A stretch of DNA of 64,000 nucleotides from a virus. The stretch lies in the IMG/VR virus record IMGVR_UViG_3300047560_001406, positions 1 through 64,000 of that record; one strand, 5' to 3'. Below are positions 2,401 through 62,331 of this stretch, in pieces. The notes below the pieces were generated by a model, which saw only the letters and a list, made by a program, of their open reading frames with translations, was not told where the DNA came from and ran no database searches. The position numbers and the translations under genes were made by a program. Within the stretch, counting starts at the first letter, position 1. The number at the start of each line of letters is the position of its first letter.

Positions 2401-2570
2401 TAGTCTTCCTCTCTGTTTCTTATAGGATAGGTAACAACCCAAGCAATAAAGGTTCCTATGATCGCATACCCAACAACTGTTTTTGCACTTCCGTCAAGAA
2501 CGACCCATGCAATGAACATTCCTAGAAGTGTCCATAGCTGGTCAATCATATCTTTGAAGAACTTTACCAT
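2400..2570 (-). CDS. small two-helix membrane protein, holin candidate
   Basis: The 56-residue product has two short hydrophobic segments (residues about 12-25 and 31-46) separated by a DGSAK turn and ending in charged RNREED. This is the size and topology of class II holins. The ATG lies within the last codons of the upstream PA14 gene and its TAA overlaps the next ATG (TAATG), so the three genes are translationally coupled. Lysis function is inferred from topology and pairing with the next membrane protein. Confidence 0.6.
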   Translation of the reverse strand: MVKFFKDMIDQLWTLLGMFIAWVVLDGSAKTVVGYAIIGTFIAWVVTYPIRNREED

Positions 2571-5032
2571 GTTTCATTTCTCCTTCTTGTTCCACCAGAA
2601 TTTCCACCGCTAGGTCCGCTACCGCCACTTGGTGCTGAAGGTGCTGATCCACCACTGCCTGCCAACCCTATGGCATTCATGGCTGCACCTGCTGCAACAA
2701 CGGTAGCAACAACCATATGCGTTGCTTCTTCTCTTTCTTGTGGTGACATGTCTGCACCTACACTACCCAATGCAGACAATGCTGCAGCTGGGTTAGTGAA
2801 TAACTCCTGAACCAATGCTCCTGGATCAGAAATTAATTCTATATTTGCTGCATCTTGTGCAGTAATCACAACGGCATTTCCGTTTTCATCTGTACGTACA
2901 TCTACTGGAGTTTCTGGTGGAAGATCTTTATATTCAATTCCAGCACTTTGAATTTGCTCAGATGTTAATGCTTCTCCTGGTTTCAAATCTGAAACTAGAG
3001 AATCTACAATTGCTGCTTTTTCTTCTGCAGTTATTACGCCATCAGCATTTGCATTTTCAATAATTGCTTCTGGCTGTTTTGCTGCCTCTTCTGCAGCAAG
3101 TCTTTCTGCTTCAGCTTTAGCAGCAGCTTCTGCATCAGCTTTAGCTTGAGCATCTGCAGCAGCTTTTTCAGCTGCCAATCTATCTGCCTCAGCCTTAGCC
3201 TGAGCCTCTGCTTCAAGTGCAGCTTGTTCTGCTGCTAGCTTTGCTGCCTCTTCTGCTGCTGCTTGCTCTGCAGCAATCCTATCTGCCTCTGCTTGAGCAG
3301 CCTGTTCTGCAGCAATCCTATCTGCTTCAGCTTTAGCTGCTGCTTCTGCTGCAATTCTGTCTGCTTCTGCTTTAGCAGCTGCTTCTGCAGCTAAACGATC
3401 TGCTTCTGCCTTTGCTGCAGCCTCTGCTGCTGCTTTTGCATCTGCCTCTGCTTTTGCCTGTGCTTCTGCAGCAAGTCTTGCCTGCTCTGCTTCATAAGCT
3501 TGTTGTGCAGCAATTCTTGCAGCCTCTGCCTCAGCAGCTAGTCTGGCAATCTCAGCTTGTCTAGCCTGTTCTGCAGCTATGGCAGCTTGACGCTGTTGCT
3601 CTTCTAAATTAGCTTGAGAAGTATAAGTTGCTTGAACATTAGATACACTTCCTTGCATTGTTTGAACAGAAACATTAAGATTACCAACAGCAACAGAAAC
3701 AGCTATTTCTGCTGATTGAGATTGAGACTCAAGATTATCTAACATTGTTGCCTGATTTGTTAGGTTTTCTGTAGCAGTTGTTAGGTTTTCTGTAGCAGTT
3801 GTTAGGTTTTCTGTAGCAGTTGTTAGGTTTTGAGTTTCATTAATTAGAACTATTTGCTTATCTGCTACAACATCAGATGCATTATTTTCAATTTGTTGTA
3901 GGGTATTTAATGTAGATTGCTCTGTTGTCAGGGTCTGAATTGCAGATAGTAGTGCTGCTTTTTGTTCTGGAGTAGCAGAAGATGTAGAAAATTCTGATGC
4001 TGGAATTACTGACCATGACCCATCTCCGTTATATCTCATTAAGGCAACTGATGCTCCACCACCATTTTCATAAAACCAAAAATCTAATGTTTTACCTACA
4101 CCAGCTATAGTAGAGATGGCAGCAGTAGATCCACCACCACCTTTATCGTACCAATCATTAATAACCATTTGTCCGTCAAGGTACAGTCTTGTTCCATCAT
4201 CTGCTGGAGCATAAATCCATTGAGTTCCTGTATACTGAGGTGTCCAAATGCCCTGCCATCTGACCTGGAAATCTTCAGGATATGTATTAGCAGGGCCACC
4301 GCCACCCCACGGCTCATTGATTCCATTAGTATCTGTGGTAACAGACACTACTGTCCCAGCACCCATTGGTGGTGCATTATTATACCCACGATCTTGGTAT
4401 ACAGTCATCGTTAGCCCAGCAGAAGTATTGGAATCAACTATCGCTTGTGCTGTATCTTTATTTGTCTGAGCTGTATCAACAACTGGGATTTGTGCATCAA
4501 CGGCATCCGATGCAGATTGTAAATTAGCCTGAGCGTTTGTCAAATTTGTTTGTGCTTGATCTACCACAGCAGTTTGAGACTCTAATGTTTGTGTTGCTTG
4601 CTGCAAAGTTGAGGTTGCATTGTTAACAATAGCCGTTGCTGAGTCTACAATAGATGTTTGTACTGTTACTGATTCTTGAGCAGAATTTAATGTCTGCACG
4701 GATTCCTGTACCGCCTGAATATTTGCTGTAACAGTTTCGATAGCTGATTGTGCCAACGATATTGCTTGATTTACAGAAGATTGGTCATTTAATGCTGTTG
4801 AGCTATCAGATACTTGCTGAATGCTATTTTGTGCATTACTAACAGATGTTTGTGCTTGCTGAATAGAATCAGTAGCTGTTATTTGGACTGTTACTGTAGA
4901 AGTTTCATTTGTTGGAGCAGGCGAAACTTGGACTGTGATCTCATCTGCATGTGCCTGTTCTGAAGGTGCAAATGCCAGCCATATAAGTATAAATATTCCA
5001 ACTAGGGCAAGCCTAAATGAAAACTTCTTCAA
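2564..5032 (-). CDS. secreted PA14-domain coiled-coil protein with EF-hand loop
   Basis: The 822-residue protein has a signal peptide ending near AHA (residue 29) and then Gln/Thr/Ser-rich heptad-like helix. A PA14-type carbohydrate-binding beta domain follows (about 205-347; motifs PEDFQVRWQG, DDGTRLYLDG, LDFWFYENGGG). Next come three exact NLTTATE repeats and a long TolA-like Ala/Glu/Lys coiled coil (about 480-650). A canonical EF-hand loop NANADGVITAEE (about 657-668) and a Gly/Ser-rich C terminus with a hydrophobic patch complete it. It is exported and long enough to span the cell envelope. I infer a glycan-binding surface or lysis-stage protein, possibly a spanin-like tether, but no catalytic domain is visible. 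A TATACT -10 box lies in the 105-nt upstream gap. Confidence 0.7.
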   Translation of the reverse strand: MKKFSFRLALVGIFILIWLAFAPSEQAHADEITVQVSPAPTNETSTVTVQITATDSIQQAQTSVSNAQNSIQQVSDSSTALNDQSSVNQAISLAQSAIETVTANIQAVQESVQTLNSAQESVTVQTSIVDSATAIVNNATSTLQQATQTLESQTAVVDQAQTNLTNAQANLQSASDAVDAQIPVVDTAQTNKDTAQAIVDSNTSAGLTMTVYQDRGYNNAPPMGAGTVVSVTTDTNGINEPWGGGGPANTYPEDFQVRWQGIWTPQYTGTQWIYAPADDGTRLYLDGQMVINDWYDKGGGGSTAAISTIAGVGKTLDFWFYENGGGASVALMRYNGDGSWSVIPASEFSTSSATPEQKAALLSAIQTLTTEQSTLNTLQQIENNASDVVADKQIVLINETQNLTTATENLTTATENLTTATENLTNQATMLDNLESQSQSAEIAVSVAVGNLNVSVQTMQGSVSNVQATYTSQANLEEQQRQAAIAAEQARQAEIARLAAEAEAARIAAQQAYEAEQARLAAEAQAKAEADAKAAAEAAAKAEADRLAAEAAAKAEADRIAAEAAAKAEADRIAAEQAAQAEADRIAAEQAAAEEAAKLAAEQAALEAEAQAKAEADRLAAEKAAADAQAKADAEAAAKAEAERLAAEEAAKQPEAIIENANADGVITAEEKAAIVDSLVSDLKPGEALTSEQIQSAGIEYKDLPPETPVDVRTDENGNAVVITAQDAANIELISDPGALVQELFTNPAAALSALGSVGADMSPQEREEATHMVVATVVAAGAAMNAIGLAGSGGSAPSAPSGGSGPSGGNSGGTRRRNETW
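3759..3832 (-). repeat. 21-bp tandem repeat encoding NLTTATE
   Basis: Three exact 21-base copies (3759-3779, 3780-3800, 3801-3821) and a partial fourth lie inside the PA14 gene. They encode seven-residue units within a coiled-coil region. Exact identity at the DNA level implies recent expansion by slippage. Confidence 0.9.
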
Positions 5033-47828: not shown

Positions 47829-49466
47829 TTATTGAGAAGCTCTTCCCTCGCCTTTCGGATTTCTTCCAGCTACCGTTGCTGTACTATCTGATGCATTATT
47901 TGTACGCTGTGCATCTCTTGCATCATTTCCAGTACTATTTGGTGCTGGCTTTAAATCTAATGGCTTAGACCCATCACCATCTGGTCTAGCACCCATACCA
48001 AGAATTGCACGTGCCTCATCAGGAATAATAATCTGGTTCTTTACGTATCTTTCTAGGATTTGAGACTGAGCGATTTCGTCTGTAAGCGTAAGTTCATTAA
48101 ACTTAAACTCAAGAATATCTGTTTTTTCACGAATGACTCTATTGATGATCTTCTGCATAGCATCTTGTCTAGGACGAGCTACCTGCTCCTTAAATGTACG
48201 ATCTTGTGCCAAAGCAGCAGCAATTGCAGCAGAGTCTCCTCCACCAATCTTTGATAGTGGTACCTGGTGTGCAACTAGGATATCATCACGATTACGAATG
48301 CGATATTCATTGAATGATGCTTCCTGTGTACCAGTTTCTACAGCTTCCATCTTGAACTCTACCTTGTTGGTATCTGTATCTCCAGGAAGTGGAATGTAGA
48401 GGGTTCTGTGATTTGAACCCTTTAGACTTGTCTGTAAGAATCTAAACATCTTATCTTCGGCATCTTCTGAAAGACGTGCACCCTTAAGTGTAACAACGTA
48501 ACGAGGCACACCCTTGTTGGTAAAGTAGTCAATATTATATTGTGAAGCTAGCATATCTCCTTGTAGTGCAGAGATTGCTGAGATGATATCAGGTACACCA
48601 TAGAATGTATTTAGTGGTGAGTATGACTTAAAGTGAATAATTTCATTAGGACGAGGATCTGCTGTAATTGGGTTTGGATTTGTTCCCTGGAAATTTCTAA
48701 AGTAAACAATTCTATTACCAATAATTTGCAAGTACCCATCACGCAAACGGCGGACTCTCATAGTAGTTGATGGAATATGTCCGATATATCCAATCTCACC
48801 TTTAACAGTTCTACCAATTTCAAGGTATCCATTTCCAGTAGACTCATAGTCAGTCATTACCTTTGACATAACTTCTGTGAATGACTCGTCAAGATTTAAA
48901 CTTTCAACCCAATCACGAAGTTCTACCTTCATGCGTTCAATACGTTTCTGTGCCTTTTCTCTAGCACTTTCATTTGACTGAGAGTCAAGAGCCATCATAG
49001 TTCTCTTTGATACCTCAAAGTCATAGCCAAGGCCAACGATATTCTCTACCTTAGCATCAATAGCAGCATGGTTCGCAAAGGATGTATCGTAGTAGTTTGC
49101 TAGTTCATACAAGTTCCATGGTGGTGTAATGACATCAAACATTCCATATCCATTGCGATAGACACGACCAGGGTTAATCTCTTTTGATCGTGCACCATCT
49201 TTACCACGATTAATTGCAAGAGCACTATCTTGATATCCTAAATCATTAATATCAATTCCAGTGTTTACAGTTTGGTTTTCAATAAGTACGTCTGTTGATT
49301 TTACTAGACGTTCTGTTCTACGCTTAAAATTCTTTTCTAGACCAGTATAGTTTTTTAACTCATCCCAATTTTTTGCAAATGGATCGTGGTCTTTAAATTG
49401 GTCTAGAGTTGCTTCGGCATCTCCAAGTGATGCATGGATATATCTAAGCTCATCGTTATCTGACAT
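47829..49466 (-). CDS. portal protein
   Basis: The 545-residue protein has portal-family features: VITPPWNLYELANYYDTSFANHAAIDAKVENIVGLG, STGNGYLEIGR, EIIHFKSYSPLNTFYGVPDI (wing/stem region) and a C-terminal barrel with RNRDDILVAHQVPLSKIG. It forms the dodecameric ring for DNA passage and docks to the terminase and adaptor. It lies directly before the protease/scaffold gene, and its ATG overlaps the upstream stop. Confidence 0.92.
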   Translation of the reverse strand: MSDNDELRYIHASLGDAEATLDQFKDHDPFAKNWDELKNYTGLEKNFKRRTERLVKSTDVLIENQTVNTGIDINDLGYQDSALAINRGKDGARSKEINPGRVYRNGYGMFDVITPPWNLYELANYYDTSFANHAAIDAKVENIVGLGYDFEVSKRTMMALDSQSNESAREKAQKRIERMKVELRDWVESLNLDESFTEVMSKVMTDYESTGNGYLEIGRTVKGEIGYIGHIPSTTMRVRRLRDGYLQIIGNRIVYFRNFQGTNPNPITADPRPNEIIHFKSYSPLNTFYGVPDIISAISALQGDMLASQYNIDYFTNKGVPRYVVTLKGARLSEDAEDKMFRFLQTSLKGSNHRTLYIPLPGDTDTNKVEFKMEAVETGTQEASFNEYRIRNRDDILVAHQVPLSKIGGGDSAAIAAALAQDRTFKEQVARPRQDAMQKIINRVIREKTDILEFKFNELTLTDEIAQSQILERYVKNQIIIPDEARAILGMGARPDGDGSKPLDLKPAPNSTGNDARDAQRTNNASDSTATVAGRNPKGEGRASQ

Positions 49467-54070: not shown

Positions 54071-54219
54071 AGAAATGTTGCTCCTTGGTGTTTTGGCACA
54101 TTGGTTGCACCACAATTATTACATGTAAGTCTAATAATTCCAGTAACTGGGCAGACAGGACCTTGGACAACCTCATGCCCTCTCATTTTACACATAATTG
54201 CCTTTAGCCATTGCTTCAT
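54067..54219 (-). CDS. zinc-ribbon mini-protein (50 aa)
   Basis: This 50-residue protein carries Cys10, His15, Cys23 and Cys33-x2-Cys36, enough for a zinc site, in the pattern CKMRGHE, CPVTG, CNNCG. Both ends are ATGA overlaps with oxygenase genes, so it is made in step with them. It may be a partner, specificity or DNA-binding subunit of the oxygenases. Confidence 0.72.
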   Translation of the reverse strand: MKQWLKAIMCKMRGHEVVQGPVCPVTGIIRLTCNNCGATNVPKHQGATFL

Positions 54220-54908
54220 GACAATTTTATCCAATGCTTTAGCACATAGTCTGGATCTTCTGTTCTAGATATATCATCAATACTTCTAGTGTCATAGGCT
54301 ATTGTAATTCTTCGTCTGTTGTTTGGACCACCATTCCACCATCCACGTGTATGTAGCTGTCCAGTTTCAGAAATTACTGCACGACCATTTATGTTTATGT
54401 TATCAAATGGTGTCACCTTATGAATTTTGTAATGAGTAACTGATGGCTCTGCATCAACACAGAAATATCCATGTAGCTCAGGCATTCCTTCACCACTTCC
54501 ATGGTCATGAAGGTTTTGCTCAATCATATTCTTGGCATAGTCTTCTTCGTTTCCGTGATCAGCATTTTCAATATTGACCCATCCCTGAACATAGTAGTTC
54601 GACTCAGCGAAGCTTGTTCCATAGTATGAACATGCCTCCTGTGCCATAGACAAGACATTCTCAAATAGTTGCTTGATTACTGGATGGTCGTAGTGGAATA
54701 TGTTGTAATAACTAAGAAGTCTTGTGGTCATTCCACCAAGCTTATCTTTTTCTGATGCAAATTCTTTGGAAACGCCATCTATTTTTCCATCTAACAAATC
54801 CTGCTCTACAGTTAGACAAAAAGAATACAAATCATTAAGCTGGTCATTAGTTACTGCCAGCCTTCTTTCAAAGAACTTGTGTGGTGGCTTTTCTTTCATA
54901 GCTATCAT
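54216..54908 (-). CDS. 2OG-Fe(II) oxygenase-like protein, HxH variant
   Basis: The 230-residue product is paralogous to the next upstream gene. Shared blocks are the N-terminal HKFFERRL, VQGWVNI, LHDHGSGEGMPELHGYFC and SETGQLH, then RRITIAYD. It resembles the phage 2OG-Fe(II) oxygenase family in which the first ligand pair reads His134-x-His136 in place of HxD; His186 and Arg200 complete the pocket. Iron binding is therefore less certain. Start and stop are both in ATGA overlaps. Confidence 0.65.
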   Translation of the reverse strand: MIAMKEKPPHKFFERRLAVTNDQLNDLYSFCLTVEQDLLDGKIDGVSKEFASEKDKLGGMTTRLLSYYNIFHYDHPVIKQLFENVLSMAQEACSYYGTSFAESNYYVQGWVNIENADHGNEEDYAKNMIEQNLHDHGSGEGMPELHGYFCVDAEPSVTHYKIHKVTPFDNININGRAVISETGQLHTRGWWNGGPNNRRRITIAYDTRSIDDISRTEDPDYVLKHWIKLS

Positions 54909-55564
54909 GCCAATGGAATCCAGTGTTGTTCATGTGAATACCCTCCACGCTTCAAGTACTCTAGTGGAGTTACGTCATATGCAACAGTAATTCTTGGGCC
55001 TTGCCAATCCCAATCTCCCATTGCATGTGGGTGTCCCATTTCAGAAAGAATTGCACGATTGTTCTTGTTAATATTTTCTACTTCATTATCGAAAACAATG
55101 TAGTGTGTTGACGATGGTTCTGCTGCTACGCAATAGTATCCATGAAAATCTGGAGCTCCTGGTCCACCATGCTCATGCCAATTTAGCTTTCCATTTCCAG
55201 CATGGTTAATATTAAACCATCCTTGAATCATAAATTTTTGTGCTTCAAAATCAATCTCGTAGTGGTCACACGCTTCTCTAACCATTTCGCCGATTGCTTT
55301 ATAAAGATTATAGATACCATCAATGTGGAACTGGAAAACATTGTACTGTCTCCACTTCATTGTAGAGATACTGTTAGAATCTTTCCAAAGTTCAAATGGT
55401 GTTACTGGCGTTACGCCGTTAAGTTTTGCTTGCTCAATTAAAGAGTATCTATCCTGTAACTCTTTTGTAAGTACATCCAGATCATTATCTAGATATCTTT
55501 CAAAGAACTTGTGTCCTTGAGTTGTCTTGCTGATACTTCTAAGAGGTGTTTGATCTTTATACAT
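54905..55564 (-). CDS. 2OG-Fe(II) oxygenase-like protein, HxH variant, first gene of cassette
   Basis: The 219-residue product starts at the ATG at 55564, with GGAG seven bases upstream (an ATG at 55570 is too close to that site). Shared motifs with the next gene: GHKFFERYL, IQGWFNINHA, WHEHGGPGAPDFHGYYCVAAEPSSTHY, and SEMGHPHAMGDW followed by GPRITVAYD. TATAAT and the GGAG leader form its own promoter region. It opens a four-gene translational chain. Confidence 0.65.
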   Translation of the reverse strand: MYKDQTPLRSISKTTQGHKFFERYLDNDLDVLTKELQDRYSLIEQAKLNGVTPVTPFELWKDSNSISTMKWRQYNVFQFHIDGIYNLYKAIGEMVREACDHYEIDFEAQKFMIQGWFNINHAGNGKLNWHEHGGPGAPDFHGYYCVAAEPSSTHYIVFDNEVENINKNNRAILSEMGHPHAMGDWDWQGPRITVAYDVTPLEYLKRGGYSHEQHWIPLA

Positions 55565-55619
55565 CCCCATACTCCGTTCTGTGTATAAAACTATTATACA
55601 CTATACCACGGATACTGGC

Positions 55620-56432
55620 TTATCTAAAGCCGAAGACGCTGAATGGTGAGAAGCCAAATACTCCAAAGAAGCCAAACACACCGAATGGCCCAAATCCAAA
55701 CACACCAAATGGAGAGAATCCAAACACACCAAATGGGCCAAATCCGAATACTCCAAATGGAGAGAATCCGAATACGTTAAATGGAGAGAATCCGAATACA
55801 CCAAAAAAGCTGAACACTGAGAATGGAACGAACGTAAAGGTTGTAACCTGACCAGAATATGGAGACCAGTCTGAGTTACCATTAGCGTTTGTAGCATATA
55901 GTCTATATGACTGAGCTGTTCCTGCCTCTTGGTTAATGGTTACAGATGTCGATGTTGTATCGCCAGACTTAGAATCATCAGACTCCCAGTGATAATTAGA
56001 AATTGCTTTACCACCGTCAGCTGGTGCTGACCATGAAATAGTATCTTGTGCAACATTTGAAACTGTTGATGCAGACGGCTGTCCTGGCGTTTGTGGCACT
56101 GTGGTTGCAGTAATAGAAGCAGATGCAGATGATGCATCAGAATTTCCATATGAGTTTGTTGCAACAACTGTAAATGTATAAGCAGTATTTGATTGCAATC
56201 CAGCTACTGTAATAGGAGAAGATGATCCTGTTCCTGTATATCCACCTGGAGATGAAGTTACAGTATAAGATGTTGCTGGTTGTGAGTTAGATGGCAAAGA
56301 GAAGGCAACTGAAGCAGCTCCATTATTATATGCTCTATTTGTACCAACATCTATTGCAGTTACGCTAGTTGGTGCTAATGGTTGCAAGAAGTCGTTTGAC
56401 TGCTGCGAGTGTCTACCTGCTCTTTTGCTCAT
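55620..56432 (-). CDS. two FN3 domains plus Phe/Gly-rich C-terminal repeats
   Basis: The 270-residue protein has two fibronectin-type-III domains (about 20-109 and 113-198), with the typical YTFTVVATNSYGNS and SYRLYATNANGNSDW strands. Residues 199-270 are about eight copies of an octapeptide (S/G)PF(G/N/S)VFGF, ending in a single Arg. The tail has no acidic residues and only that one basic residue, and it is strongly hydrophobic. There is no signal peptide, so it is probably a virion protein whose FN3 part may bind cell-surface polymers. The repeat may assemble into a beta fibre or anchor it to the virion. The same tail occurs at 61840-62331. Confidence 0.75.
   Translation of the reverse strand: MSKRAGRHSQQSNDFLQPLAPTSVTAIDVGTNRAYNNGAASVAFSLPSNSQPATSYTVTSSPGGYTGTGSSSPITVAGLQSNTAYTFTVVATNSYGNSDASSASASITATTVPQTPGQPSASTVSNVAQDTISWSAPADGGKAISNYHWESDDSKSGDTTSTSVTINQEAGTAQSYRLYATNANGNSDWSPYSGQVTTFTFVPFSVFSFFGVFGFSPFNVFGFSPFGVFGFGPFGVFGFSPFGVFGFGPFGVFGFFGVFGFSPFSVFGFR
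55623..55838 (-). repeat. tandem 24-bp-type repeats encoding PFGVFGFS
   Basis: Near-identical 24-base units, each containing an AACACCAAA/AATACTCCAAA-type core on the plus strand, lie head to tail and encode the octapeptides. The length of one unit (FFGVFGF and FGVFGF) differs, a sign of indels by whole or part codons. Confidence 0.85.
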
Positions 56433-56456
56433 CTATGTATCCTTATCTAAGTAGTT

Positions 56457-58166
56457 TTAAGCTGAAAGGTCTCCATACACAACCCAAGTATCTGTTGCTC
56501 TCTTGAACAGAGTTGCAGATGACCACTGTGTACGTAGTTTTAGTCCTGGTGTAGCATTTACTGTTACTCCTGCTGCTCCAGCAATTGTAATTTGTCCTGC
56601 TCCAGTTTGAAGAATATCAAATGATGTTCCAACTGGATATGCAACTGATGCATTTGTTGGAATTGTAACTGTAACTCCAGATGCTGAAGAAATTTCAATC
56701 ATCTTGTCACGGTCAGTTAGAACTGGAGTATATGCACCAGTTTGCTGATTGATAGCTGTTAATGATGGTACGCCTTGTTTTACCTGCACACCATCTGAGA
56801 ATTCTACTCCGCCTAGTTTAACGGTGTCATATGTTGCTGTTGAGAAATCAACAACATTGCTCGTAGGTTCTGAGCCACCAGAGATAAGCTTCCACTTGCC
56901 ATCTGAGGCATCACGAACAAGTCCTGTGTGGAAGTGACCTGCACCTGAATCTCCATAAGCACCGAAGATACCAATATCTACAACATCTGTATCATACTGT
57001 GTTGATGATAGGTAGATAAGTGAATCTGTAAGCTCTAGATTTGCAGATGATACAGTTGTAGTTGTACCATTTACAGTTAGATTACCTGAAATTGTAAGAT
57101 TTTCTGCTGTAGCATTTCCAGTAAGTGCTGGTGCTGCTAGAGGGGCCTTAGCTGCAAGAGCAGTATCTAGGCCAGAAATCTTTGATGTAGCAATAGCTGC
57201 AGAACCATTAATGTCAGCATTTACGATTGTTCCATCAGCAATCTTTGCAGATGTAACTGCCCCATCAACTAACTTTGCAGTAGAAACTGTATTGTCAGTT
57301 GGTGTACGTGTATCTGATAGACGTGAATCAGTTGTAACTACAAGTGCAGATGTATCTGCAATTCCGTGTACTGAAGTAGTATCAGAATTGTGTGTAGAAA
57401 TTGATGACTCTACACCAGTTGTTGTAGCTAAGCTTGAGTCAGCTGATACAACGATAGTGTTTGCTGAATCATTATATGTTACAAGAATTCCATCAGATCC
57501 ACTTGTGATTGACGCTACTGCATCCTGTGCACGTTCATTTGTAAAATATAGATTTGTACCTTCCGCAACATTTGTTGTTGCAATGTTATTTACTTGAGTT
57601 TGAAGGCTTGAAAGTTGTCCATTTGTGGTATCAAGGTCTCCTGCTACAGCAGCAATTGCTGTATTTGCAGTAGAAATTTCTGTTGTATGTGTTGATGTTA
57701 GACCCTGGAGTGCTCCGATGTCAGTAACTGCATCATTAAGAGCTGTTGTTGTTTCTCCTGCTGTTGTTTGTAGAGCAGTGATATCTGTTACAAAGTCAGC
57801 AACCTGATCATCAACATATGTTGTAAGATCTGTCAATCCACCAGCAATTTCGTTAAGTGTATCTAAAGCTTCTGGAGAACCCTGAATAATGTTTGAAAGT
57901 TGAGAAACTGGGATAGCTGCAGCACCATCAAGTGTGGCAACACCATTAGCTGCACCCTTTTCTGTAAGGAGAATATAGTCGTCAAGGGATCCACCTAGGT
58001 CTTCTAGGTTCTTAAAGTAAGATAGGTCTGCCCAGTTAGTAATACCGTCACCCATCTTGAACTGACCTGTATCAGTCTCAAAACCGATCTCACCAGCAGA
58101 TAGAATAGGGTTTGCAGTAGTCCATTGTGTTGCAGTTCCTCTGCGTTGCTGCATTCTTGTTGCCAT
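56457..58166 (-). CDS. tail-fibre / receptor-binding protein with Mtd-like N terminus
   Basis: The 569-residue protein begins TRMQQRRGTATQWTTANP and LSAGEIGFETDTGQFKMGDG, the N-terminal attachment motif found in many phage tail fibres and tropism determinants. A long Thr/Ser/Ala helical/beta segment follows (coiled-coil like), then an Ig-type repeat and a C-terminal domain ending in VVYGDLSA. The last 70 residues match the C terminus of the fibre at 62340-62987. The protein probably forms a trimeric receptor-binding fibre. Confidence 0.75.
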   Translation of the reverse strand: MATRMQQRRGTATQWTTANPILSAGEIGFETDTGQFKMGDGITNWADLSYFKNLEDLGGSLDDYILLTEKGAANGVATLDGAAAIPVSQLSNIIQGSPEALDTLNEIAGGLTDLTTYVDDQVADFVTDITALQTTAGETTTALNDAVTDIGALQGLTSTHTTEISTANTAIAAVAGDLDTTNGQLSSLQTQVNNIATTNVAEGTNLYFTNERAQDAVASITSGSDGILVTYNDSANTIVVSADSSLATTTGVESSISTHNSDTTSVHGIADTSALVVTTDSRLSDTRTPTDNTVSTAKLVDGAVTSAKIADGTIVNADINGSAAIATSKISGLDTALAAKAPLAAPALTGNATAENLTISGNLTVNGTTTTVSSANLELTDSLIYLSSTQYDTDVVDIGIFGAYGDSGAGHFHTGLVRDASDGKWKLISGGSEPTSNVVDFSTATYDTVKLGGVEFSDGVQVKQGVPSLTAINQQTGAYTPVLTDRDKMIEISSASGVTVTIPTNASVAYPVGTSFDILQTGAGQITIAGAAGVTVNATPGLKLRTQWSSATLFKRATDTWVVYGDLSA

Positions 58167-58218
58167 AGTTGTTCTCCTCTTTCAGGATTGTATCCTGCTT
58201 TATATTATATCCTATGTT

Positions 58219-58680
58219 TTAATTAAAATTATCAGTTACAGAGCCACCATCGAAGATTAAAGTGAATTCTGTTGAGCTTGGGCTTCCGCCATCAATACCA
58301 CTCGACATAGGTGCTTGAGGTATTGATCCACCTTCACGGAAGGTAGAAGTAATTAAACCAGTTCCGCCAATAGATGTATCGTGAATGTGCTGAGTCAAAT
58401 TAATTGTGTCATCAATATTAGCGACAGTAAGCCATCCATCTGTTTCATCATAGATATTAATTCTTTTTGTGATTGTGTCATACCACATCTTACCTGCAGT
58501 AGCACTTTCAGGTGCAGTAGAGGCAACAGTAATACCAGAAGCTTGAGCATTCAGATATCCACGTGTAACAACGTGAGTATCGTCAGTTGGATCTGATGCG
58601 ACGATTGGTCCACCAAATATACCACCCTCTGCTACCTGGATTCCATTTTTTACTTTGAAATCCTTGTTTACTGTTGCCAT
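58219..58680 (-). CDS. short structural protein with fibre N-terminal motif (153 aa)
   Basis: It starts MATVNKDFKVKNGIQVAEGG, the same N-terminal module as the next upstream gene (MATVTKDFKVKSGLVVEGAN). The middle contains TAGKMWYDTITKRINIYD, common in small phage fibre pieces. A shared attachment module suggests both proteins bind the same virion site. Confidence 0.65.
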   Translation of the reverse strand: MATVNKDFKVKNGIQVAEGGIFGGPIVASDPTDDTHVVTRGYLNAQASGITVASTAPESATAGKMWYDTITKRINIYDETDGWLTVANIDDTINLTQHIHDTSIGGTGLITSTFREGGSIPQAPMSSGIDGGSPSSTEFTLIFDGGSVTDNFN

Positions 58681-58693
58681 CTACTTACTCCCT

Positions 58694-60109
58694 TTACTTA
58701 ATAACTGTTCCGTATACTGTAACTACAGAATTATTGTTTGCTGTTGTAACACGAAGTCTTGCATTACCAGCATTAATATCAGCTGTAATTGTTGATGCTG
58801 AGCCATTAGTACCAACAACAGCATATTCTGAGATTGCGATGTTGTTTGATGCATCAAGTGTAAGCATTACCTTTGATAGTTCTGTGTGTGAACCATAAGC
58901 AACCTTAACTGTGTACTCTGCAGAACGGTATACTGCTGTGTCAAATGCGTGTGCTGTAATCTGGCTTGCAGTTGGAACATCTGTCTGTGTGGCAATGTGT
59001 GCTACAAGACCATTAATGTCAACTTCAGTGAAGTTTGGAACTACAGCCTCAAGTGCATCTACTGCACGAGCATCTGTGAAGTAAAGGTTTGAACCTTCTG
59101 CAAGATCAGATGTTGTAGAATCTGCGATACCATTTTCAGCAACAAAGTCATAGGCACCTGTTCCTGTGTTGTATGTCACAGAGATGTTTGTCTGAGTTCC
59201 AAGTGTAATTGGATCAATCATTGCATTTTCTACACGTGAGTTATTGAAGTAAAGGTTATCCTGTCCTTCTTCAATAGCATCTGTTGTGAGAGCACCAATC
59301 TCTGAGTCTGTGTAAGACTTAGCATTATTTTCTGCTGTATTGGCATAGCCTTGTGCTGCTGTATTAAGGCTAGAGATTTCTCCATCAACATATGTTGTAT
59401 CAGCCTTAGTCGCTACTAAATTAGCCACATCTGATGCATAGTTTGGATTATCTGCAATTGCAGCTGCAAGCTCATTAAGAGTATCTAGAAGAGCTGGTGC
59501 TGAATCTACAAGATCTGCAACCTTTCCATCTGTATATGAATTTGCATCTGTAAGTGCTTGGCTAGCAGCTCCAAGTGCATCATATGTACCAGCAAGATTT
59601 AGATTTGTGATTGCTGTATTTGTATAATTATTTGCATTACCTTCTGCATTGTTTGCTGCATCATTTGCATAACCTTGTGCATCTGTTTGTGTTGCAATCT
59701 GGTTACCCCAGATAGTAGCCACTCCGTCTGGACGAAGGTCAATATCTGAGTTTTGTGTTGTAATGATTACTTTTTGATTTGCATCAAGTACGATATTGTT
59801 TGAATCCCAGGACTTGATGTATAGATCATCGTCTGTAGCATCAATTTTTCCAGCATTACCAATACGTACATCTGGGGTTGTTAATTTTGAATCAAGATCA
59901 ATTTGTCCAGCTGCAAAGTTGCCAAAACCATCACGCTTTACAACTGTGTCTGGGTTATTATCTCTTGTAGCTGTACCACCAATAAGGTTGACAATGTAAT
60001 CTTGGTCATCTTGCTTTTTGGTGAGAATATCATAGTTATTGACGGTAGCATTTGCACCTTCAACAACAAGTCCACTCTTAACCTTAAAGTCTTTAGTGAC
60101 TGTTGCCAT
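58694..60109 (-). CDS. fibre protein with repeated Ala/Asn/Thr helical region (471 aa)
   Basis: The N-terminal DFKVKSG module leads to a beta region, then an alpha-helical Ala/Asn-rich coiled region with multiple NNAEGNANNYTNTAITNL-type segments. The C-terminal 90 residues (KVMLTLDASNNIAISEYAVVGTNG) resemble the end of the 60132-60578 protein and the short fibre domain common in T4-like phages of marine bacteria. It is probably a trimeric tail or head fibre. AGGGAGTAAGTAG precedes the ATG. Confidence 0.68.
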   Translation of the reverse strand: MATVTKDFKVKSGLVVEGANATVNNYDILTKKQDDQDYIVNLIGGTATRDNNPDTVVKRDGFGNFAAGQIDLDSKLTTPDVRIGNAGKIDATDDDLYIKSWDSNNIVLDANQKVIITTQNSDIDLRPDGVATIWGNQIATQTDAQGYANDAANNAEGNANNYTNTAITNLNLAGTYDALGAASQALTDANSYTDGKVADLVDSAPALLDTLNELAAAIADNPNYASDVANLVATKADTTYVDGEISSLNTAAQGYANTAENNAKSYTDSEIGALTTDAIEEGQDNLYFNNSRVENAMIDPITLGTQTNISVTYNTGTGAYDFVAENGIADSTTSDLAEGSNLYFTDARAVDALEAVVPNFTEVDINGLVAHIATQTDVPTASQITAHAFDTAVYRSAEYTVKVAYGSHTELSKVMLTLDASNNIAISEYAVVGTNGSASTITADINAGNARLRVTTANNNSVVTVYGTVIK

Positions 60110-60131
60110 TTTGTTTTATCTCCTTGTTAGA

Positions 60132-60578
60132 TTACGCCTTTAATCCCATACGTGCGAAACGTACAGTAATCGGACGAATTATTGCATCTGGTGTTACAAT
60201 CAAACTGACTGTATCATCAATGCGAGAGACGCTAACGGTGCCCATATTCCCATCATTGTCAATTGTGCCGTATTCTGTTACGCTGATATTATCAGCATCA
60301 CAAAGAACGGTCAACTCTGTTGCGTAGAACTTATTGTCTCCATTTGTCAATTTTGAAATTGAGACAATATATTTAATCATTCTCCACTCTGTAGCATCAA
60401 ATGTATCTACAATTGTAGAGCTTTCAATTCCTGTAATAGTATTCTCATTATTACCAAATGTGCCTAAATCAGTAGCCTGAGCTGTGGCGGTATCGATAAG
60501 AGAAGTATAATCACTCTGAGTAGGACGATCTCCAGTCTCAAATAGTGTCTTTACGTTAGGGATTGTAGTTCTAGCCAT
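60132..60578 (-). CDS. small fibre-tip-domain protein (148 aa)
   Basis: The product has the same beta domain as the C terminus of the 58694-60109 protein (EWRMIKYIVSISKL, TELTVLCDADNISVTEYGTI, VSLIVTP), widespread in structural proteins of T4-like phages. An exact TATAAT ends six bases before its ATG and no ribosome-binding site is present, so it is probably leaderless. Confidence 0.66.
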   Translation of the reverse strand: MARTTIPNVKTLFETGDRPTQSDYTSLIDTATAQATDLGTFGNNENTITGIESSTIVDTFDATEWRMIKYIVSISKLTNGDNKFYATELTVLCDADNISVTEYGTIDNDGNMGTVSVSRIDDTVSLIVTPDAIIRPITVRFARMGLKA

Positions 60579-60584
60579 GGTTAT

Positions 60585-60590
60585 ATTATA
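60585..60590 (-). promoter_or_regulatory. -10 box of leaderless fibre gene
   Basis: TATAAT lies six bases from the ATG at 60578. The upstream -35 region has only a weak TTAAAA-type match. Confidence 0.6.
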
Positions 60591-60607
60591 CAGTATATTT
60601 ACACATT

Positions 60608-60886
60608 TTAACGAATGTAATTGCTGTGACCAATGATTGCTACGCCAATAGAAGCAACATTATCTCTTGTATAATTTTCAGAAGTTACCTGTCTAAATTC
60701 AACCTTGAATGGTAGTTGCTCAACTATGTCAACTCTAGATAGGAACTGTGTTCCATTTACTGATATTGAGCCTGTTTGTGGAAATGTAGAAGAAACTTCT
60801 GCAATGGGATTCTTTGTAGATAAACCCCATAGGCTTGGATTGAATCCTGGAATTTTAGTCTGTTTAGATATTACTACAGATGCCAT
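60608..60886 (-). CDS. small structural-context protein (92 aa)
   Basis: A beta-rich 92-residue protein (PIAEVSSTFPQTGSISVNG, VEQLPFKVEFRQVTSENYT, SIGVAIIGHSNYI). It is coupled by TAATG to the upstream gene and lies among fibre genes. I do not recognise a family. Confidence 0.58.
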   Translation of the reverse strand: MASVVISKQTKIPGFNPSLWGLSTKNPIAEVSSTFPQTGSISVNGTQFLSRVDIVEQLPFKVEFRQVTSENYTRDNVASIGVAIIGHSNYIR

Positions 60887-61287
60887 TATCGATCAGTTAC
60901 CTCTGCGATGATAGTCATAATTCCACGGCATACCGTCCAAACTACGACAGCATCGGAGAGCTGAACGTCAAAAATATCACCAGTCTGAAGCAGCTTGCAT
61001 TGTGCAGGCAAAAGCTTAACTGTGAACTCACCAGTGACATCAAATTCAGTTGCTTCTGGAGTAATTGAAAATAAAAGTTGAGTTCCTCTTCTAAAGTCTG
61101 CTTTAATAGTATAATCAGCAACAGTTATTGGGTTTGCTGAATCGTCTTCAACATAGCACTTAAAAGCAGCATAGTCACCCTTTACAGCTGTCCACCTAAC
61201 AATTGGTGGAGTAGCTCCAACCTCAATCTCACCAGCAGCATTAACTGCCTGAGTTGAAGTTGTGGTTGTTGTTCTCAATACTGTCAT
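60886..61287 (-). CDS. beta-sandwich structural protein (133 aa)
   Basis: The sequence VRWTAVKGDYAAFKCYVEDD, YTIKADFRRGTQLLFSITP and FDVQLSDAVVVWTVCRGIMTI reads as an Ig-like beta sandwich, like the N-terminal domain of baseplate upper proteins. An exact TATAAT is six bases before the ATG, indicating a leaderless transcript. Confidence 0.62.
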   Translation of the reverse strand: MTVLRTTTTTSTQAVNAAGEIEVGATPPIVRWTAVKGDYAAFKCYVEDDSANPITVADYTIKADFRRGTQLLFSITPEATEFDVTGEFTVKLLPAQCKLLQTGDIFDVQLSDAVVVWTVCRGIMTIIAEVTDR

Positions 61288-61293
61288 AGTTTT

Positions 61294-61299
61294 ATTATA
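61294..61299 (-). promoter_or_regulatory. -10 box of leaderless gene
   Basis: TATAAT-AAAACT-ATG: the six-base gap places transcription start at the start codon at 61287. The identical TATAAT-AAAACT-ATG element precedes the gene starting at 61825. Confidence 0.65.
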
Positions 61300-61306
61300 T
61301 CATTAA

Positions 61307-61825
61307 TTATGATAGACCAGCCTTAAGTGATCCCCATGTTGGACTTGACTTAGAGCCAACGATAATAGAGCCATTTAATGATGGGTGTACAACCGTAGCA
61401 ATAGCAGTTCCTAGTCCAGAAGCATCATCTGGGTCACTAGTGAGACCTCCAAATGCACCAACATATAAAACTTGTCCAGCTGAATATGATGATGTATTAA
61501 TATTATTTATAACTCCTGCTACAACAGCTACGCCAGTTGAAGATGCTGCAATATCTGATCTAACTAATCCCAAAATTGGTCCAGGGTGACTAACATCAAC
61601 CTTATTAATAAGAACATTGGTTCCATCGTGACCAACAACTCTTACTGGAGAACCTGCAGAGATTGTTGATGATGAAGAGTTTTTAACTGGAATATCAACA
61701 TACGATGCTTGTGGAAGAACAGCATCAAGTCTTTCGGTAAGTGTCTTGATATCCCCATGTACGTTAACTGCATCTCCAGATTGTGGAAATGGAAGTTCGT
61801 AATTAGTAGTTTTTCCTGTAGCCAT
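61307..61825 (-). CDS. fibre or decoration-like protein (172 aa)
   Basis: The N terminus (KTTNYELPFPQSGDAVNVHGDIKTLTERLD) is followed by a Ser/Ala/Val beta region with repeated IAASSTGVAVVAG-type strands. Its leaderless -10 element TATAAT-AAAACT-ATG is identical to that of the next gene. It is probably a virion surface protein. Confidence 0.65.
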   Translation of the reverse strand: MATGKTTNYELPFPQSGDAVNVHGDIKTLTERLDAVLPQASYVDIPVKNSSSSTISAGSPVRVVGHDGTNVLINKVDVSHPGPILGLVRSDIAASSTGVAVVAGVINNINTSSYSAGQVLYVGAFGGLTSDPDDASGLGTAIATVVHPSLNGSIIVGSKSSPTWGSLKAGLS

Positions 61826-61831
61826 AGTTTT

Positions 61832-61837
61832 ATTATA
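61832..61837 (-). promoter_or_regulatory. -10 box of leaderless gene
   Basis: TATAAT lies six bases before the ATG at 61825, with the same AAAACT spacer as the promoter at 61294-61299, and overlaps the last codons of the repeat protein gene. Confidence 0.65.
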
Positions 61838-61839
61838 CC

Positions 61840-62331
61840 TTATCTAAATCCAAATACTGAGAATGGAGAGAATCCAAACACTGAGAAGCTGAATCCAAAA
61901 ACAGTAAATGGAACGAATCCAAATACGCTAAAGCTGAATCCAAAAACAGTAAATGGAACGAATCCAAATACGCTAAAGCTGAAGCCAAAGACAGTAAATG
62001 GTACGAAACCAAACACATTGAATGGTGCAAAACCAAAGACACCAAAAGGAGAAAAACCAAAAACACCAAAAGGTGTAAAAGTAAATGTTCCATATGTAAG
62101 ATCTACATTTGACTCATACTCTGCTAGATTGCCAGCAGCAGGAACTTGAGATACAATTTTTCCATCTTTATCTTGATCAGATGCATCTGTATATGACTGT
62201 GCTGTCTCAGTACCGACTTTAAAACCATCAGAAACGATTCCATACTCAGCATTAGTTTTAGTCATACCAACATAGTTGGTAACAACTTTCATCCCCTTAG
62301 AAGATGCCCATAAGCCGAAAGAACCTAGCAT
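61840..62331 (-). CDS. PASTA-like domain plus Phe/Gly-rich C-terminal repeats
   Basis: The 163-residue protein has an N-terminal PASTA-like fold (about 16-80: VGMTKTNAEYGIVSDGFKVG, then KIVSQVPAAG and VDLTYG), the type that binds peptidoglycan. The second half is about ten copies of xPFxVFGF and SFSVFGF, including three 15-residue VPFTVFGFSFSVFGF units, and ends in the same SPFSVFGFR as the FN3 protein at 55620. It lacks a signal peptide, so a virion location is inferred. The PASTA-like head could target the host wall during adsorption. Confidence 0.75.
   Translation of the reverse strand: MLGSFGLWASSKGMKVVTNYVGMTKTNAEYGIVSDGFKVGTETAQSYTDASDQDKDGKIVSQVPAAGNLAEYESNVDLTYGTFTFTPFGVFGFSPFGVFGFAPFNVFGFVPFTVFGFSFSVFGFVPFTVFGFSFSVFGFVPFTVFGFSFSVFGFSPFSVFGFR
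61851..62077 (-). repeat. tandem repeats encoding xPFxVFGF / SFSVFGF units
   Basis: Repeat units of 24 and 21 bases lie head to tail; three 45-base copies (VPFTVFGFSFSVFGF) are nearly identical at the DNA level, indicating recent expansion. The same protein unit occurs in the repeat at 55623-55838, about 6 kb away. Confidence 0.85.

Follow-up and report, generated by a model that had tools for sequence, protein, structure and literature searches.

Two unrelated proteins of uncultured phages, one FN3-headed and one PASTA-headed, carry phenylalanine-rich tails that tend to match within each genome

PASTA domains elsewhere bind peptidoglycan, many receptor-binding proteins combine a conserved head with a variable C-terminal end, and the repeats of FG nucleoporins are uncharged, Phe/Gly-rich and disordered. 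Phages have FN3 minor tail proteins (phrog_6977), and bacterial-intein-like (BIL) domains of the Hint type give mainly cleaved products (PMC7664689). The locus analysed here lies in a window of 64,000 nucleotides (the whole stretch of DNA under study, part of a 64.7-kb virus record) and, taken together with its counterparts in related phages, resembles each of these systems in part. The FN3 heads of two relatives match phrog_6977 (E 1e-6), with an FN3 tandem seen in the model; unlike here, the match to that family comes without a Phe-rich tail, and the FN3 protein of the window has no PHROG match. The second protein has a head that matches the Pfam PASTA profile and solved PASTA folds, but here a single such domain sits on a phage protein that ends in an aromatic tail, and not on a kinase or a penicillin-binding protein. 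The phages of Streptomyces in the Stanwilliamsviridae have a similar portal, and the portal, protease and tape measure genes are as in the annotated Enygma record, but no relative of the tailed proteins, of the C1 family, of the 148-aa protein or of a 1220-aa protein was found there. The likeness to FG nucleoporins is an analogy only: the phage tails are also uncharged, Phe/Gly-rich and disordered in models, but they are denser in Phe and occur in viruses of bacteria, with no sequence relation shown. This repeat was met nowhere in literature searches that covered the repeat itself, Phe-rich phage tails, Hint domains in tail fibres and phage FG repeats.

The record encodes a portal, a head protease, a 2328-aa tape measure and tail proteins, and the phage is therefore most likely a siphovirus, from a large uncultured group. 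The resemblance of its portal to those of Stanwilliamsviridae (ca. 46% identity), together with the presence of whiB in the group, indicates that the host is probably an actinobacterium. This actinobacterial marker, used too for host prediction (PMC6802176), exceeded the cut-off in 12 of the group's 18 records, including all nine of at least 100 kb, and was not found in the window record, which is partial. The features of the locus are collected in Table 1.

Table 1. Features of the tailed-gene locus in the window (positions of the window; all on the minus strand).
Feature	Position	Strand	Basis
Second C1 family protein, 230 aa	54216..54908	(-)	alignment; synteny
C1 family protein, 221 aa, directly downstream of FN3-tail gene	54905..55570	(-)	phrog_2696 (unknown function); synteny
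FN3-headed protein, Phe-rich C-terminal tail, 270 aa	55620..56432	(-)	ORF; Pfam fn3 E 1.1e-9; 8 F.VFGF units
FN3 protein tail, Phe-rich, 72 aa, end SPFSVFGFR	55623..55838	(-)	
FN3 protein head	55839-56432	(-)	
Fibre-like protein, Mtd_N head, directly upstream of FN3-tail gene	56457..58166	(-)	Pfam Mtd_N E 7.5e-14; PHROG tail families; conserved position
Fibre-like protein between the two tailed genes	58694..60109	(-)	PHROG tail families; conserved position
148-aa protein between the two tailed genes	60132..60578	(-)	found in 21/21 loci of synteny map
PASTA-headed protein, Phe-rich C-terminal tail, 163 aa	61840..62331	(-)	ORF; Pfam PASTA E 1.1e-7; fold match; 10 F.VFGF units
PASTA protein tail, Phe-rich, 81 aa, end SPFSVFGFR	61843..62085	(-)	
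PASTA protein head	62086-62331	(-)	
Portal protein	47829..49466	(-)	phrog_12 E 4e-55; ca. 46% identical to Stanwilliamsviridae portals; tailed-gene module upstream of head genes

An earlier note, made from the letters alone, had described the two tailed proteins as unrelated heads on one charge-poor octapeptide tail with a common end. Their coordinates, both tandem PFxVFGF tails and the shared end are borne out by the open reading frames, and the terminal Arg is indeed the only charged residue in each window tail. The heads stand above the curated Pfam cut-offs (FN3 against PF00041, 38.9 bits for a cut-off of 25; PASTA against PF03793, 32.1 bits for 23.2), and the top fold matches of the PASTA head are solved PASTA domains. 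Phe makes up 40% of each tail. PF.VFGF occurs six times in the FN3 tail and seven times in the PASTA tail, while tails shuffled with their composition kept had on average ca. 0.15 units (maximum 3), compared with the F.VFGF counts in Table 1. The PFxVFGF repeats are real, with two refinements: the unit is better written as F-x-V-F-[GSN]-F plus a linker of 0–2 residues (often SP), with units of six, seven and eight residues mixed, and x is charged in some relatives (R 23, K 11 and E 3 of 527). Exact DNA repeats, also claimed, are present at both loci; the longest measures 53 nt for the PASTA tail and 21 nt for the FN3 tail, and the tandem arrays have periods of 24 and 45 nt. Neither Pfam nor PHROG has a family that covers the repeat, in agreement with the earlier view that no described family is known to have it. 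Elsewhere in the window (3104-3474 and 3757-3831) there are other tandem arrays, including a perfect 21-nt one, within an 822-aa ORF (2564-5032).

The search that the note had proposed, a pattern search of metagenome viruses, recovered two consecutive octapeptides in at least 119 stretches of IMG/VR, and the proteins bearing them were FN3- or PASTA-headed in almost every match listed, so that the modular combination of unrelated heads with a shared tail recurs across the collection. The repeat is not an assembly artefact, since it recurs in more than 100 places; besides, its 24-nt units differ between copies. A cellular origin was also rejected: the two-unit pattern had no match in 84,980 bacterial and archaeal genomes of GTDB, and the three matches to a shorter pattern there were isolated, free of repeats and put down to chance. 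Among cultured phages no convincing relative was found of the heads, the tail DNA, the Hint domain, C1 or the 148-aa protein, apart from one weak match to the FN3 part only; the tail is poorly probed there by BLAST, which masks low-complexity sequence. IMG/VR contains at least 585 relatives of the 148-aa protein, whereas a search of 50,697 deposited phage records found none.

Gene order was kept in 20 further loci, the two tailed genes, ca. 6 to 10 kb apart, flanking a fibre-like block upstream of the portal. The succession is small genes, the PASTA-tail gene, small genes, fibre-like genes, the FN3-tail gene, usually two C1 genes, others and the portal; often a gene that by eye resembles a lytic transglycosylase stands between the PASTA-tail gene and the next small genes. 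In some genomes of the set L131-L150 extra genes between the tailed genes look by eye like a lytic transglycosylase, a fucosyltransferase or a nucleotide-sugar epimerase, and in others a sulfotransferase-like gene after the FN3-tail gene.

The tails of relatives are written in different Phe-rich dialects (FFSVFNF, VPTFGVFGF, PFGAFGFTP, FFPPFFP) and finish in FGFR/FSFR, in FAPWG, in a Cys-rich segment or in a folded domain of ca. 160 residues. This last domain is of the Hint/BIL type as judged by its profile, which matches 2lwy (bacterial intein-like, PDB; 1.3e-6) and several inteins, single-sequence Pfam matches being below the cut-off. It caps the tail in about half of the genomes and is absent from both window proteins, which end in FGFR. 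The PASTA tails of L148 and L147 consist of other simple repeats that are not Phe-rich (TINTIDTINTI; AVTPSVTP), often with Cys-rich segments between. In the PASTA genes of L014, L026, L074, L100 and L137 the Phe-rich tract is adjoined by segments that by eye look like thrombospondin type 1 repeats (WSEWSxW...C; GDWTYADPASWSTC).

Many uncultured viruses, then, carry both genes, otherwise unrelated, with like Phe-rich repeated tails. We compared the two tails in 34 distinct genomes with both genes, 23 of them for the Phe-rich tracts, using thresholds for tracts, dialects and ends that were chosen in this analysis. Tract likeness was 0.61 within genomes and 0.29 between them (P 5e-5, n=23), and the last 15 residues scored 41.9 and 15.5 (P 5e-5, n=34), in both cases by permutations that leave shared descent in. 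In 19 of the 23 genomes the partner tail was more alike than the FN3 orthologues elsewhere. The presence of the Hint domain agrees as well: it was on both proteins in 14 genomes, on neither in 16, on the FN3 protein only in four and on the PASTA protein only in none (P 2.3e-6). There are exceptions, as the PASTA tail was not Phe-rich in 11 of the 34 genomes and for the window FN3 tail the PASTA partner is not the closest match. At the matched residues codons were identical in 591 of 1122 cases, against 569.9 ± 12.6 expected, which places the match between genes at the level of the protein. The extreme case is L131, whose tracts agree at 98% of aligned residues in near-identical unit order with codon identity at chance. 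Units inside one gene, in contrast, share codons strongly (z 12.8), and we take them to have spread by duplication within each gene.

Unit number also varies between near-identical contigs. Repeat length differed in 38 of the 73 pairs whose heads were at least 85% identical, and L074 and L100 have identical heads with 133 and 67 residues of repeat (a difference of 66), although in individual cases a single length difference could be a collapse by the assembler. The variation in unit number anticipated from the exact DNA repeats is seen among related contigs.

The match within each virus suggests that the two proteins work together or bind the same thing, and its cause is either selection on the protein or old exchange. 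The explanation we favour, with about an even chance of being right, is that the FN3 and PASTA proteins are paired, fibre-type surface proteins of the virion, with aromatic tails that bind either each other or a partner common to both. Their place on the virion is suggested by gene context, and the PHROG tail-protein matches of FN3 heads in relatives were counted in favour of the explanation. Each protein joins an N-terminal FN3 or PASTA part, folded and conserved, to a C-terminal tail that is rich in aromatic residues, variable and, in the models, disordered. Units would be gained and lost by local duplication within each gene, while selection on the protein would keep the two tails of a given phage alike in dialect and end. 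The reason for such selection, co-assembly of the tails or a common partner, would be that they bind each other or one molecule, either a third virion protein or one component of the host envelope. Where the Hint domain retains all its catalytic residues, as in a minority of proteins, self-cleavage could remove it, and the tail would then be bare as it is in the window. A bolder form, which we think unlikely, is a private zipper, in which like-with-like aromatic repeats would let a phage's own FN3 and PASTA proteins co-assemble and, during a mixed infection, would exclude their counterparts from other phages, the dialects diverging for that reason.

Structure models fit this division of the proteins. 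In AlphaFold monomer models pLDDT is near or above 90 over most of each folded domain (PASTA, FN3, C-terminal Hint), while the tails in both models have pLDDT of 32–43 and no secondary structure, which supports a tail disordered as a monomer and leaves the beta fibre imagined by the earlier note without support. Compared with the PDB by itself, the tail matched coronavirus spike chains, which was judged to be a chance effect of composition. The topology may even be the reverse of the adhesin proposed in that note, with heads conserved and tails and ends variable between genomes and matched within them.

This same arrangement feeds the main rival reading, somewhat unlikely in our opinion, that both tails are receptor-facing tips with the same chemistry for the same host surface, the heads holding them on the virion and the tails never touching each other. 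In its favour, conserved heads with variable C-terminal ends are seen in many receptor-binding proteins, and the ends change ca. 8–9 times on the tree. However, the tract is of low complexity and disordered in the monomer models, unlike most known receptor-binding tips, and a PASTA domain that binds peptidoglycan would instead put the head on the host.

Another possibility is that common descent, together with gene conversion between the two repeat tracts, produced the match as a by-product, with no functional link. It draws on the shared descent left in the permutations and on the few independent switches: a co-variation test controlled for the tree found only two to three supported ones, all in the same direction, and for this reason cannot reach significance. 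Genome L132 also shares more codons than expected (excess z 3.1). In the remaining 22 of the 23 genomes, however, codon sharing was at chance, so that recent conversion does not explain the match, and dialects differ between genomes of one clade, yet the partners still match (exact P 0.025 and 0.017 inside two clades). An old exchange, with synonymous drift since then, may also have produced the codon pattern seen, which counts against the favoured explanation. The by-product reading as a whole we find very unlikely.

Last, the tails might be signals or substrates of one processing or assembly step of the phage (self-cleavage by Hint or neighbouring enzymes) and match through the shared enzyme, which we consider the most doubtful, since the strong match of the C-terminal ends, a processing domain by family (Hint/BIL) and the C1 genes that follow the FN3-tail gene, with a 2OG-Fe(II) oxygenase in the window, are set against a tract that is long, repeated and variable in length where a signal should be short and constant, against a C1 family recognised as an enzyme by no tool, and against a full catalytic set (Cys1 or Ser1, the block B His of TxxH and the C-terminal HN) in only 15 of 68 distinct proteins, with partial loss in the rest. 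C1 has no relative in Pfam, PDB or profile-profile searches. By eye the C1 pair (54216-55570 in the window; L131-L150) has a conserved H.H...H...R resembling 2OG-Fe(II) oxygenases, an assignment that none of these tools supports, and an oxygenase recognised as such (Pfam PF13640, 53543-54115) lies just downstream of the pair. Hydroxylation of tail prolines by neighbour genes is likewise unsupported, because C1 is not established as an oxygenase and a phage with a low-proline dialect (L145 and L156) retains its C1 genes.

Returning to the paired-protein explanation, this system of surface proteins in uncultured phages with probable actinobacterial hosts looks both common and undescribed. Tails that are alike in protein and not in codons amount to a natural experiment on the co-evolution of disordered, aromatic-rich viral sequences, and the pairing itself is directly testable with expressed proteins.
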